A DNA stretch of 64,000 nt from Rhodospirillales bacterium URHD0017 (lineage in GTDB: Bacteria > Pseudomonadota > Alphaproteobacteria > Reyranellales > Reyranellaceae): NCBI GenBank assembly GCA_900110395.1, contig FODP01000032.1, positions 1 to 64,000 of the forward strand. The letters run 5' to 3'. The notes beneath the pieces are model-generated. The model did not search any database and had not been told where the DNA came from. It saw only the letters and a list, made by a program, of their open reading frames with translations. The translations under genes were made by a program, and so were the position numbers. Of this stretch, positions 50,821 through 54,248 are shown in pieces (the stretch's first letter is position 1; every line of letters begins with the position of its first letter).

Positions 50821-50880
50821 GGACCGCGGGCCTCCAGGCCCGCACCATGATTCATGAGCGGGCCTGGAGGCCCGCGGTCC
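50821..50880. repeat. Perfect 23-bp inverted repeat, probable bidirectional terminator or REP-like element
   Basis: Left arm GGACCGCGGGCCTCCAGGCC plus CGC, a 14-base spacer, then the exact reverse complement. It sits between two convergent genes, five bases past the D-aminoacylase stop and five before the dksA stop. Position suits a bidirectional transcription stop; the perfect arms without T-runs suit a mobile palindromic repeat. Confidence 0.75.
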
Positions 50881-50885
50881 CATGA

Positions 50886-51311
50886 TCAGTCAGCGCCCTC
50901 ATCGCGGCGGGTGCGCTCGAGGCGCTCGTGGCGCTCCTGCGCCTCGACCGACAGGGTGGCGATCGGGCGGGCCTCCAGGCGCTTCAGCGAGATCGGCTCG
51001 CCGGTCTCCTCGCAGTAGCCGTAGGTGCCCTCGTCGATCGACTTCATGGCGCTGTCGATCTTGGAGATCAGCTTGCGGAAGCGGTCGCGGGTGCGCAGCT
51101 CGAGCGAGCGGTCGGTCTCGGCGGTGGCGCGATCTGCAAGATCGGGCTGCGCCAGGCTCTCCTCCTGCATGTTCTGCAATGTCTGGTTGGATTCCTCGAT
51201 CAGCTCGTTCTTCCACTTCAGCAGCTTCTGGCGGAAGTATTCCTGCTGCATCGGGTTCATAAAGCTTTCGCGTTCAGTCGGTCGGTAATTCTGCGGCAAC
51301 GTGATCGACAT
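50886..51311 (-). CDS. dksA: DksA-type RNA polymerase-binding transcription factor
   Basis: A 141-residue DksA/TraR protein. The coiled coil spans YFRQKLLKWKNELIEESNQT to LELRTRDRFRKLISKIDSAM; its tip has the acidic DLADRATAETD pattern that reaches into the polymerase secondary channel. The zinc-finger region reads YGYCEETGEPISLKRLEARP and keeps only one of the usual cysteines, as is common in alphaproteobacteria. It adjusts rRNA and amino-acid promoters together with ppGpp. The ATG with GGAG nine bases upstream was chosen over a GTG five codons earlier. Confidence 0.92.
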   Translation of the reverse strand: MSITLPQNYRPTERESFMNPMQQEYFRQKLLKWKNELIEESNQTLQNMQEESLAQPDLADRATAETDRSLELRTRDRFRKLISKIDSAMKSIDEGTYGYCEETGEPISLKRLEARPIATLSVEAQERHERLERTRRDEGAD

Positions 51312-51510
51312 CGTCGGCAACTCCACTCGCAGCGACTACAACGTCCGCCTCGGGGGAAGGCGGCTCTTGAGGCGCGCGGAGTATAGGGATGGTCGATGAC
51401 GCTGCAACAAAGTTCGCTGTTGCTAACCACCACTTGTCGTGCAGTGCAGCAAAGCCGAACGGCGCTAATCCTCACGAACCACGCGCAATTATGGTGCCAA
51501 CAAGGCAGCT

Positions 51511-52257
51511 TTATTGCGCTGCAGCAAGAACGCCCAAACCGAGCAGCCGGGAAAAGCAAGCCGACAGGTCGAAGCCCGTTTCGGCCCGGCCGGCTGCCTC
51601 TTCCAGGGACAGCCCGTCGACAAGGCCGCCGACAAAGGCCGCCTCTGCTTCCGACAGGCTGACGAACGCGGCATCGTCGGGCCGGCGCAGGACGAGCAGG
51701 CGTACGCCTCCGGCCGCCAGGTCGACCGCGTCCACCGCCGCCTCGGGTTGTGAGGCCGCCCAGATCCGGTCCAGCGGATAGGGCGATGCGACCAGGACGG
51801 TCCCTGGCGTCAGGCCAAGCCGCAACGAGGGCAGCTGGTCGGCGGGAATCGTCGCCAGGTCGGCTGCGGCGAGCCCACCGCCGGCCGGGGTGTGGAAGGC
51901 GAGGTTCAACGCCCAGTCGAGCCGGGCAACGTCGGCCAGGTACGGCAGGTCGCGGTTGGCGCCATTTCCGGCAATGAAAGCGGGAAACCCCGCACCGTAC
52001 TCCGCCAGCACCGGCTGGCTGGGCAGCGACTGGCCGATGAAGGCACGCGCCAGCCCGCGGAAGAAGTCGGCGCCGACCACTGCCTGAACCGTCGGGAAGG
52101 TGGCAGCGAGCGCCGAGGCCAGGCTGTCGAGCATATGGTGACGATGGATGCGCAGGCGCGCCGAGGCGGGAACGATTTCCGCGGCCAAGGCGGGTTGAGC
52201 CTCGGCGGAGAGCTGGGCGGCGAAGGCCCTCTGCAGGTCACGCAGCGCGAGCGGCAC
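51511..52257 (-). CDS. bufC: DUF2063 protein, bufferin biosynthesis partner BufC
   Basis: A 248-residue protein: LRDLQRAFAAQLSAEAQPAL is the DUF2063 N-terminal helix bundle, with RLRIHRHHMLDSLASALAAT and FPTVQAVVGADFFRGLARAF. It ends in a HTH-like winged tail (LEEAAGRAETGFDLSACFSR). DUF2063 proteins serve as the partner of DUF692 enzymes (compare MbnC), binding the precursor peptide. The GTG start lies inside the DUF692 gene (20-base overlap), so the two are coupled. The open frame extends far upstream, but only antisense to conserved DUF692 codons. Confidence 0.82.
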   Translation of the reverse strand: MPLALRDLQRAFAAQLSAEAQPALAAEIVPASARLRIHRHHMLDSLASALAATFPTVQAVVGADFFRGLARAFIGQSLPSQPVLAEYGAGFPAFIAGNGANRDLPYLADVARLDWALNLAFHTPAGGGLAAADLATIPADQLPSLRLGLTPGTVLVASPYPLDRIWAASQPEAAVDAVDLAAGGVRLLVLRRPDDAAFVSLSEAEAAFVGGLVDGLSLEEAAGRAETGFDLSACFSRLLGLGVLAAAQ

Positions 52258-53056
52258 GGCGACCTCCAACCGATGCGGCCCGCGCCGCCTCTTCCAGCAA
52301 GACGGACAAGGCGGGCAGGTCCGCATCCCACTCGACCAGTGTCGGTCGAGGACCGAAGCGCTCAACGACGTCGGCGAACAGAGCCCACACGCCGTCACTG
52401 ACGCGGGAGCCGTGATCGTCGATCAGGATGGTCTCGCCGTCGGCATCGTTCACGGCATGGCCGGCGACGTGATACTGGGTGATCGTCTCGCCCGGCAGGT
52501 CGAGCCAGTCGCGCGCATCGAGGCAGAGATTGTGCGCCGTCACGACGATGTTGTTGACGTCGAGCAGCAGCCCACAGCCGCTGCGCCGGACCAGCTCGGC
52601 CAAAAACTCAGGCTCGCTCAAGGTCGACTGCGCGAAGCCCAGGTAGCTGGACGGATTCTCGATCGATACCTGACGGCCCAGTGCCTCCTGCAGGCGCTGC
52701 ACGTTGCGCACGACGACGGCAAGGGCCTCTTCGGTGTAGGGCAGTGGCAGGAGGTCGTTGAAGTAGCGGCCGCCGAAGCTGCTCCAGGAAAGATGGTCGG
52801 ACACCAGCGCGGGCTCGAGCCGCTTCACCAAGGCAGCCACACGCGCCAGGTGCGCCTCGTCGAGCCCATCCACCGAGCCCAGCGACAGGCCGACGGCATG
52901 AACGGAGAAGGCGTAGTCGGCCCTCAACGCTTCGACGGCTTGCGATCGCTCGAGATGGTTCTCGGCGTGGATTTCCAGGAAGCCGGTTGCCGGCCGCTCG
53001 CGCGCGATCTCCGCCAGGTGCGGGGCGCGCAGCCCGATGCCCGCAACCGGGTCCAT
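52238..53056 (-). CDS. bufB: DUF692 iron-dependent peptide-modifying oxygenase BufB
   Basis: A 272-residue TIM-barrel protein of the DUF692/MbnB family: GIGLRAPHLAEIARERPATG, FLEIHAENHL (first metal ligands), SVHAVGLSLGS, LVSDHLSW, IENPSSYLGF, LLLDVNNIVVTAHN and YHVAGHAVNDADGETILIDD. These multi-iron enzymes convert cysteines of a precursor peptide to thiooxazole- or oxazolone-type groups. Here it sits between a DUF2282 precursor and a DUF2063 partner, the arrangement of bufferin loci, which make copper-binding secreted peptides. ATG 53056 lies five bases after the precursor's stop. Confidence 0.88.
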   Translation of the reverse strand: MDPVAGIGLRAPHLAEIARERPATGFLEIHAENHLERSQAVEALRADYAFSVHAVGLSLGSVDGLDEAHLARVAALVKRLEPALVSDHLSWSSFGGRYFNDLLPLPYTEEALAVVVRNVQRLQEALGRQVSIENPSSYLGFAQSTLSEPEFLAELVRRSGCGLLLDVNNIVVTAHNLCLDARDWLDLPGETITQYHVAGHAVNDADGETILIDDHGSRVSDGVWALFADVVERFGPRPTLVEWDADLPALSVLLEEAARAASVGGRRAARAA

Positions 53057-53061
53057 GACGA

Positions 53062-53307
53062 TCAGCCGGCGGTCGTCTTGCCGCCGACCAGCTTGTCGCA
53101 GACGCCCTTCGGGACCGAGATCCAGGCGTCGTTCTGGGCATCCGTCTTCGACGTCCCGGCGCATGAGGATTTCGCCGTCTGGCAGTCGTTCTTGCCGGCC
53201 TTGGCGACGCCGTAGCACCTCTCCATGTTGCCCTGAGCCTGCGTGGCGGCCGGCAGCACCAGGGCGGCCGCGAGAGCCGAGGCAATGGCAAGACGGGTGG
53301 TGGTCAT
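53062..53307 (-). CDS. bufA1: DUF2282 bufferin precursor peptide BufA1
   Basis: An 81-residue precursor. A signal peptide (MTTTRLAIASALAAALVLPA, cleavage after ATQA) is followed by a core with four cysteines at 31, 42, 49 and 70 in the family context ERCYGVAKAGKNDCQTAKSS, CAGTSK and WISVPKGVCDKLVGG. In bufferins such cysteines are modified by DUF692 enzymes and the product chelates copper in the periplasm. A very strong ribosome site (AAGGAGGACACCG) suits high expression. First gene of the bufA1-bufB-bufC operon. No DoxX-type bufD gene is seen next to it. Confidence 0.88.
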   Translation of the reverse strand: MTTTRLAIASALAAALVLPAATQAQGNMERCYGVAKAGKNDCQTAKSSCAGTSKTDAQNDAWISVPKGVCDKLVGGKTTAG

Positions 53308-53365
53308 CGGTGTCCTCCTTGGGTGAAGATGGGGGTCTTATACCTCACAGGGGAGTCACTAAAGC

Positions 53366-53575
53366 TTGTTCGACAAGCCCGGCAACGCCCTGCTCTCGCC
53401 CGGCGATTTCGTGCGTCATCCCGGCCGGCCCGACTGGGGGCTGGGCCAGGTCCAGTCGATGATCGGCCATCGCATCACCGTCAACTTCGAGAATGCCGGC
53501 AAGCTCGTCATCGACGGGAACGTGGTCGAGCTGGAGCGGGCACCCTCTTCTTCAGGTGGTCCGCCGCCGCGCTGA
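53366..53575 (+). CDS. DUF3553 domain protein
   Basis: A 69-residue protein: SPGDFVRHPGRPDWGLGQVQ, then SMIGHRITVNFENAGKLVID is the DUF3553 domain, also found at the end of UvrD-like helicases, where it has a CarD/Tudor-like fold. It starts at a TTG with GGGGAG about ten bases upstream; no ATG is in frame. Its last 68 bases overlap the 3' end of mobA on the opposite strand. The domain is complete, so I consider it real. Function unknown. Confidence 0.7.
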   Translation: MFDKPGNALLSPGDFVRHPGRPDWGLGQVQSMIGHRITVNFENAGKLVIDGNVVELERAPSSSGGPPPR

Positions 53576-54248
53576 GCTCGGCCGGCGTGTTGACGTTCAT
53601 GAACGGTGCGCCACCGCCGGGCCATGCCAATTCGGCGAGCCGGTGCCGATCGGCAAAAGCTTCGACGCGACGCATCCCCTCTTCGAGGATCGCCCGCCTG
53701 AGGTCGTCGGCAAGCTTCACCGACCACACGGCCACGGCATGTTCACGACGCCGGCCGTGCCGCACCATCAGGATGTCGGGCTCGGGCACGTGCATCAGGC
53801 CGCACAGCCGCACCGTGAGGTCCATCGGCAGGAACGGTGCGTCGGCCGGCGCGGTCAGGATCCAGCCGGCATGCGGATGATGCTTTCGCGCCCACTCCAT
53901 CCCCGCAAGCACGCCGGCGAGCGGGCCGAGGCGCCTGCCCTCGCGCCGGGCGGCGCGCTGGATGTCGGGCGGGTCGGGAATCACCGGCACCTTGAGCGCA
54001 CGCAGGCCGGGCAAGGGATCGTTGGCGACGACGACGAGGTCCATGACCTGCGGCCGCAGGCGCTCGACGACATGCGCCACCATCGGCCGTCCGCCGAGCA
54101 GCCGCAGCGGCTTCGGCACGCCCGGACCCATGCGCCTGCCCTCGCCGCCGGCCAGCACGACGCCGACCAGCGCGGCCGCCCGCACTGGCCCCAGATGCAT
54201 GGGCCCCAGATGCGTTGGCCCGAAATGTTGCACTACTTTCCCCGCCAT
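53508..54248 (-). CDS. mobA: Molybdenum cofactor guanylyltransferase
   Basis: A 246-residue nucleotidyltransferase that attaches GMP to molybdopterin. The signature VVLAGGEGRRMGPGVPKPLR is at residue ~28; PVIPDPPD and GPLAGVLAGMEWA follow, and the metal site WILTAPADAPFLP matches the family's T-x-D-x-P-F. PFMNVNTPAEL closes the domain. The N-terminal ~25 residues contain a threefold HFGP/HLGP/HLGP pattern coded by short imperfect DNA repeats; the true start may be a later Met in that stretch. Divergent from the hydratase gene, 46 bases apart. Confidence 0.85.
   Translation of the reverse strand: MAGKVVQHFGPTHLGPMHLGPVRAAALVGVVLAGGEGRRMGPGVPKPLRLLGGRPMVAHVVERLRPQVMDLVVVANDPLPGLRALKVPVIPDPPDIQRAARREGRRLGPLAGVLAGMEWARKHHPHAGWILTAPADAPFLPMDLTVRLCGLMHVPEPDILMVRHGRRREHAVAVWSVKLADDLRRAILEEGMRRVEAFADRHRLAELAWPGGGAPFMNVNTPAELSAAADHLKKRVPAPARPRSRR

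Follow-up and report, generated by a model that had tools for sequence, protein, structure and literature searches.

A conserved three-gene bufferin operon of the Buf1 type in a bacterium of the Reyranella lineage

Introduction

Can a small cysteine-containing precursor, a DUF692 enzyme and a DUF2063 protein make up a complete bufferin pathway when the fourth gene, bufD, is missing, and would the product of such a pathway serve copper? This question is raised by the gene trio bufA1-bufB-bufC in a stretch of 64,000 nucleotides (nt) from Rhodospirillales bacterium URHD0017, a member of the Reyranellaceae (GenBank assembly GCA_900110395.1, contig FODP01000032.1, positions 1 to 64,000). This whole stretch, called the window in the following, lies on contig C45 of a genome of 8.18 Mb in 62 contigs. 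A reading of the DNA made from the sequence alone had proposed a copper-chelating bufferin operon at this place, with a four-cysteine precursor, a very strong ribosome site and no bufD nearby.

Our analysis indicates, with a probability of about 0.9, that a Buf1-type bufferin operon of the Reyranella lineage lies here, whose modified BufA1 product would buffer periplasmic copper. The evidence for the operon comes from the gene content and order, the protein families, the four-cysteine pattern, the metal site as mapped on the sequence, the modelled fold of the partner protein, purifying selection and synteny. In the following, related loci are denoted by L numbers and contigs by C numbers.

Results

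The operon and its products

The genes bufA1, bufB and bufC are tightly packed on the minus strand, from position 53307 down to 51511 (Table 1). Only 5 nt separate the bufA1 stop codon from the ATG of bufB, and bufB and bufC overlap by 20 nt. The ribosome site that had been called very strong for the precursor is indeed there, in the form of AAGGAGGA shortly ahead of the ATG, and GGAGGT precedes the bufC start. Since bufB lacks an obvious ribosome site of its own, the arrangement suggests that its translation is coupled to that of bufA.

BufA1 matches PF10048 (DUF2282; E 1.3e-23, 83.2 bits with a cut-off of 22.4), the family that has been published as the Buf1 signature (PMC12452194). Its hydrophobic amino-terminus, which ends in ATQAQ and precedes the four cysteines, reads as a putative Sec signal peptide. 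The cysteines C31, C42, C49 and C70 are set apart by 10, 6 and 20 residues, which is the Buf1 spacing. A BufB relative was encoded at 132 places, and the best 80 were kept for locus counts; a BufA frame, in some cases not adjoining bufB, turned up in 74 of these 80 loci. With the window included, 71 of the 75 frames follow the pattern C-x10-C-x6/7-C-x20-C beginning with CYG or CFG (10-6-20 in 61, 10-7-20 in 10). As for the other four, L103, L106 and L109 keep four cysteines and differ after the first one, and L101 is cut by a contig end. The four-cysteine precursor of the sequence-only reading is thus borne out, with a spacing common to its relatives. A phmmer comparison of BufA1 with the PDB gave no match at E 0.1.

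BufB matches PF05114 (E 7.9e-94) and exceeds the cut-off of NF050167, 'MNIO family bufferin maturase' (341.2 bits, cut-off 310), the Pfam and NCBIfam scans having been run with one extra codon ahead of the ATG. On the HvfB, ApyH, MbnB and ChrH models it scores well below the cut-offs. Its relatives in the PDB are eight sequences, all of them DUF692/MNIO proteins, including 3bww (E 3.3e-30), TglH of TglHI (8hci) and MbnB (7dz9, 7fc0, 7tcr and 7tcw). In VcMbnB the iron ligands are His55, His91, Glu135, Asp165, Asn168, His194, Asp209 and Glu238, and His211 and Asp240 are also important for function (PMC8888699). The counterparts in BufB, mapped by the alignments of the PDB matches and by motif spacing rather than on a BufB structure, are H53, H88, E133, D166, N169, H196, D213 and E242 for the ligands, and H215 and D244 for the two additional residues. 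In an alignment of 83 rows (the window, the 80 loci and the C15 and C25 paralogues from the same genome), none of the ten varies among the 82 or 83 rows that have a letter at its position. Judged by this mapping, the multinuclear iron site of BufB is complete. Many forks are weak in a BufB tree that leaves out three short rows (L089, L099 and L128), with 40 of its 77 inner branches supported by both tests; the placement of the C15 BufB on its long branch is unsure.

BufC matches PF09836 (DUF2063; E 3.2e-21). The Pfam text for this family, 'Putative DNA-binding domain', and the title of PDB entry 3dee point to DNA binding, and BufC might thus be a regulator instead of a maturation partner. By sequence (phmmer), BufC has no PDB match at E 0.1. 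For an AlphaFold model computed from 24 BufC sequences (pLDDT 89.3, pTM 0.85), the three best PDB matches are TglI, which occurs twice as part of a TglHI holoenzyme (8hci and 8hi7), and NGO1945 (3dee), with Foldseek E values of 1.6e-5, 1.8e-4 and 2.6e-3 and VIA Z scores of 14.0, 13.9 and 13.5 over 226, 227 and 188 residues. The next match, NO66, reaches a Z of 6.6, and MbnC of 7dz9 is also found (Z 5.9). The carboxy-terminal part (about residues 145-248) aligns with recognition proteins of ribosomally synthesised and post-translationally modified peptides (RiPPs), e.g. TbiB1, at a middling Z of 5.0. PME-type 1 partners have been described as a DUF2063 domain plus a RiPP recognition domain (RRE) of together about 250-260 amino acids, and the same source treats NGO1945 as a typical MNIO partner (PMC12452194). 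The predicted fold of BufC fits such a PME-type 1 partner. The match with TglI of the TglHI holoenzyme, the alignment with RiPP recognition domains, the published standing of NGO1945 and the overlap of bufC with bufB all speak against a regulator, which we consider very improbable. The sequence-only reading is correct on the families and the gene order.

Table 1. Features of the bufferin locus and its immediate neighbours (window coordinates)
Feature	Position	Strand	Remarks
bufA1	53062-53307	-	ATG-TGA, 81 amino acids; Buf1 bufferin precursor (DUF2282)
bufB	52238-53056	-	ATG-TGA, 272 amino acids; MNIO (formerly DUF692) bufferin maturase
bufC	51511-52257	-	GTG-TAA, 248 amino acids; DUF2063 and RRE-like C-terminal domain, predicted PME-type 1 partner
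Shine-Dalgarno sequence of bufA1	53313-53320	-	AAGGAGGA, 5 nt upstream of the ATG
Promoter-like GTGA-N13-TATAAG	53337-53359	-	within the 58-bp gap from bufA to the divergent DUF3553 gene; a lead only
Imperfect 16-nt inverted repeat	51483-51519	-	across the bufC stop codon; arms 81% complementary, 5-nt loop
DUF3553 gene	53366-53575	+	divergent neighbour outside the pathway; PF12073, E 1.7e-27
dksA	50886-51326	-	downstream neighbour outside the pathway; TIGR02420, 153.3 bits, cut-off 115.5

Selection and synteny

All three genes evolve under purifying selection. The ratio of nonsynonymous to synonymous changes (dN/dS), counted over aligned codons in 18 comparisons with the stop-to-stop frames of six relatives (L049, L127, L050, L051, L062 and L078), is 0.07-0.21 for bufA, 0.09-0.18 for bufB and 0.20-0.35 for bufC. 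The nearest BufB records belong to Reyranella and Rhodospirillales bins, with 95% identity for L049 and 85% for Reyranella soli.

The neighbouring genes mobA, DUF3553 and dksA look like housekeeping genes, and the synteny with DUF3553 and dksA is conserved. According to a phmmer search of the open reading frames, 28 of the 80 BufB loci have a divergent DUF3553 gene immediately on the 5' side of bufA. The succession of hydratase-like gene, mobA, divergent DUF3553, bufA, bufB, bufC and dksA is found in exactly this order at 24 loci. Within the family, 68 of 75 genomes have a DUF2282 match (46 of the 51 that are at least 90% complete). The 30 best-scoring DUF2282 loci of the family, which are not a random sample, comprise 27 of the form bufA-B(-C) and three of the form bufA-bufD. 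Because the synteny is conserved and DUF2282 is widespread in the family, the operon is old and, in this lineage, probably of vertical descent.

Proposed pathway

In Buf1 bufferins the modification falls on the central cysteines, and a disulphide links the outer pair (PMC12452194); Caulobacter bufferin 1 has been assigned thiooxazoles (PMC13097082). A role of bufferins in sequestering periplasmic copper has been reported (PMC12452194). By analogy, BufA1 would be made with a Sec-type signal segment that doubles as leader, BufC would present it to the iron enzyme BufB, and BufB would oxidise the central C42 and C49 to 5-thiooxazoles. Sec would then export the peptide, whereupon the outer C31 and C70 would form a disulphide, and mature BufA1 would buffer excess copper in the periplasm. 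The modification, the export, the binding of copper and the physiological role are all read across from characterised bufferins, and the label 'copper-chelating' was likewise carried over from these relatives.

The absence of bufD

The remark that bufD (DoxX) is missing nearby proved right. Just 184 bp lie between bufC and the dksA frame, and the three DoxX matches of the genome are on contigs C32, C15 and C30, none on the contig of the operon. One might suspect a remnant, in decay or without function, in which bufD has been lost and the mature peptide is not made any more.

Among the 80 BufB loci, 49 have the form bufA-B(-C) without a recognised bufD, as detected with one DoxX query (phmmer), which a divergent bufD outside the family may escape; two of the 49 are cut before bufC, another six are on contigs whose end comes shortly downstream, and three start near the left edge. 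In 19 loci bufD follows bufC, one locus is bufA-D-B-C, and in three a divergent bufD-bufA pair adjoins bufB-C. Eight loci consist of bufB-C with no bufA within 1.3 kb (six Variovorax records, L106 and L128); L106 has a divergent bufA-bufD about 1.4 kb off, and L128 is cut at the edge. The three-gene form can be counted with most confidence where dksA comes close behind. Among 43 gaps between bufC and the dksA frame, 40 measure at most 180 nt, and the three of 585-720 nt are those of L090, L091 and L095, the only three of the 80 loci with bufD between bufC and dksA.

In Caulobacter, CC2907-CC2906-CC2905 is listed as DUF2282-DUF692-DUF2063 with no doxX, and CC3254-CC3257 has four genes (PMC3511200). 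Therefore, the three-gene bufferin operon is an established form, and the absence of bufD, found in 49 of the 80 loci as well as in CC2907-CC2905, is a known layout and no peculiarity of the window. As far as this listing goes, bufD is not strictly required for a Buf1 cluster, although it is counted among the core genes. Since L090, L091 and L095 hold bufD between bufC and dksA, the Reyranella line has probably lost the gene at this position, a gain in the others being the alternative. Such a loss is what lends the idea of a remnant some plausibility; it is contradicted by the intact frames, the full metal site, the four cysteines, dN/dS values well below 1 and the equal three-gene form of so many loci (49 of 80, two of them cut before bufC), and we give it hardly any credence. 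The three-gene form is common in the genus, which bears on the need for DoxX in bufferin function.

Regulation and physiological role

Some results weigh against a Buf1 operon for copper buffering. NCBIfam has no match for BufA1, its BufA2 model giving 29.8 bits with a cut-off of 60, and BufC scores 43.2 on the HvfC model, whose cut-off is 142. Of the seven proteins scanned between 50886 and 55095, none was recognisable as the product of a copper gene or as a metal regulator. A sigma-F-type promoter has been mapped upstream of both Caulobacter Buf1 operons (PMC3511200), and the corresponding motif GTAACC-N16-CGAA is absent from the 200 nt upstream of the window bufA when up to two mismatches and spacers of 15-17 are allowed. 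Finally, a DUF2282 match is lacking in five of the 51 genomes that are at least 90% complete, so that the system is not universal in the family.

With no mismatch and the last-but-one base of CGAA left free, the Caulobacter sigma-F motif does not occur in the whole window, nor is it found with up to two mismatches in the 200 nt upstream of the bufA on contig C15. A scan of 51300-53700 found no match to the sigma-70 consensus promoter, and its two terminator-like sites do not stand out from a shuffled mean of 1.5. The inverted repeat across the bufC stop codon is a possible 3' transcript hairpin, without a T run. A promoter-like GTGA-N13-TATR is present in 16 of 44 bufA upstream regions, the window included (chance mean 0.135, maximum 3 in 200 rounds of Markov resampling); as the 44 rows are related and not independent, it is only a lead.

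A further explanation is that the genes form a genuine bufferin operon with another principal task than copper stress: it might be expressed constitutively, or deal with another metal (gold, chromium or cadmium) or with redox stress, and bind copper incidentally. The operon is conserved between housekeeping-like genes (among the family's 30 best DUF2282 loci, 25 have mobA upstream), and no sigma-F motif was found upstream of the window bufA. Chromium and cadmium induce CC3254-CC3257, and CC2905 and CC2906 rise under dichromate (PMC3511200); the name 'gig' stands for gold-induced genes (PMC12452194). The copper role draws on the characterised bufferins, and we regard a different main function as unlikely, with more in its favour than a remnant or a regulatory BufC. 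A Buf1 operon for copper buffering remains our preferred reading; the window operon is an ordinary, well-supported case, a sound and unsurprising example of an already known bufferin type, and it adds a conserved Buf1 operon from a little-studied genus.

An alignment of the 44 bufA upstream regions, with the window among them, also brought out a palindrome, GGCTATCG-NNN-CGATAGCC, in part of the genus. In L085 (no mismatch), L061 and L072 (one each) and L078 (two) it lies between the upstream gene and bufA, 65-67 nt before the bufA start, and is a possible operator there. Six genomes, those of five relatives and the window's own, were searched with up to two mismatches and with reversed patterns as controls; at bufA there is no copy in the L051 genome or in the window's genome. 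One more copy with a single mismatch is found elsewhere in the L072 genome (C373), and all other matches have two mismatches. Since the controls give 0-4 forward matches per genome, the two-mismatch matches away from bufA are probably due to chance (in the window's own genome five, with three in the control). The count of inverted repeats is unimpressive, with 7-8 of 8 pairs in 18 of 44 regions and in 130 of 880 resampled ones. The palindrome is no part of the window operon and was discarded as an explanation. Another repeat, the REP-like paired palindromes GCGGGCCTCCAGGCCCGC at 50826-50875, occurs in the genome as 67 exact copies, of which 31 are forward and 36 reverse, often in head-to-head pairs; the reversed control has no copy.

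Bufferin genes elsewhere in the genome

The genome holds four MNIO genes, three DUF2063 genes, two DUF2282 precursors and five BufA2 precursors above the cut-off. On contig C25 (L014:2867-6075), bufB and bufC come after a tandem row of four Buf2 precursors. On contig C15, a second Buf1 set is split: bufB-bufC at 75478-77077 (L013:2479-4078) adjoins no recognised precursor, and about 11 kb away, on the other strand at 88571-90689 (L013:15572-17690), bufA1-bufD is followed by a type II NADH dehydrogenase gene. In L075, L079 and L082 a divergent bufD-bufA pair adjoins bufB-bufC, together with similar NADH dehydrogenase, MFS and LysR genes (neighbours compared by eye). Because these loci hold both halves side by side, the two C15 halves seem to have been separated in the window's genome.

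On contig C32, at 193296-195393 (L017:1297-3394), genes for an extracytoplasmic function (ECF) sigma factor and NrsF are divergent from a Buf2 precursor gene (NF050166, 70.6 bits) and a DoxX gene, and the contig has no MNIO match. The published clusters reported to contain sigma/NrsF genes are of the Buf1, not the Buf2 type (PMC12452194). GTAACG-N16-CGAA lies 70 nt before the Buf2 precursor, and a match of equal quality turns up in 24 of 1000 resampled regions. The sigma gene is preceded by GTAATG-N16-CGAA, which has two mismatches and is weak, since 173 of 1000 resampled regions equal it. Adjoining the Buf2-DoxX pair are a Nif11-leader small protein with a cysteine-containing tail (PF07862, E 2.3e-7; L017:3407-3784) and a GRDP-like protein (PF07173, E 1e-7; L017:3823-4269). 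Contig C20 (L015:4201-6100) encodes a divergent MNIO (PF05114, 183.8 bits; BufB model 162.2 of 310), with a small CLPC-motif protein without an evident signal segment upstream and a 206-amino-acid protein without a Pfam match downstream. The three may belong to another RiPP pathway, one that uses a type 2 partner.

A tentative extension, which we hold to be rather doubtful, is that in this lineage the bufferin pathway forms a genome-wide network instead of self-contained clusters. Five Buf2 and two Buf1 precursors would share three BufB-BufC pairs, the two bufA-bufD precursors, which have no enzyme gene beside them, would be modified in trans, and the C32 Buf2 would be governed by a sigma-F/NrsF-type system without control over the window operon. 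The genome is a natural setting in which to ask whether one BufBC pair serves precursors encoded elsewhere, and whether sigma-F/NrsF control reaches Buf2 precursors.

Comparison with known systems

The score on the BufA2 model and the four, not six, cysteines speak against a Buf2 identity of the window operon. The oxazolin (HvfABC) and fontiphorin EGKCG systems likewise combine an MNIO and a DUF2063 partner with a Sec-signal precursor (PMC12452194, PMC13097082), whereas their precursors are of a repeat type. The window BufB reaches 207.7 of 360 bits on the HvfB model, and BufC falls short on HvfC (43.2/142); the HvfB score and the lack of EGKCG in BufA1 speak against an oxazolin/HvfABC identity.

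A closely related layout is found in Caulobacter vibrioides, where the sigma-F-dependent operon CC2907-CC2905 consists of these three families, likewise ordered and, as listed, with no doxX (PMC3511200). It differs in its mapped sigma-F promoter (PMC3511200), none having been found at the window operon. CC3254-CC3257 is bufA1-bufB-bufC-bufD (PMC3511200), so that the first three genes are common to both and the window operon is without the fourth. Within the genus, the upstream region of bufA in Reyranella massiliensis is longer and contains a palindrome-like stretch, which the window and R. soli do not have. R. soli NBRC 108950 (L051) and R. massiliensis 521 (L078) carry the same operon beside DUF3553, with BufB proteins that are 85% and 75% identical to that of the window.
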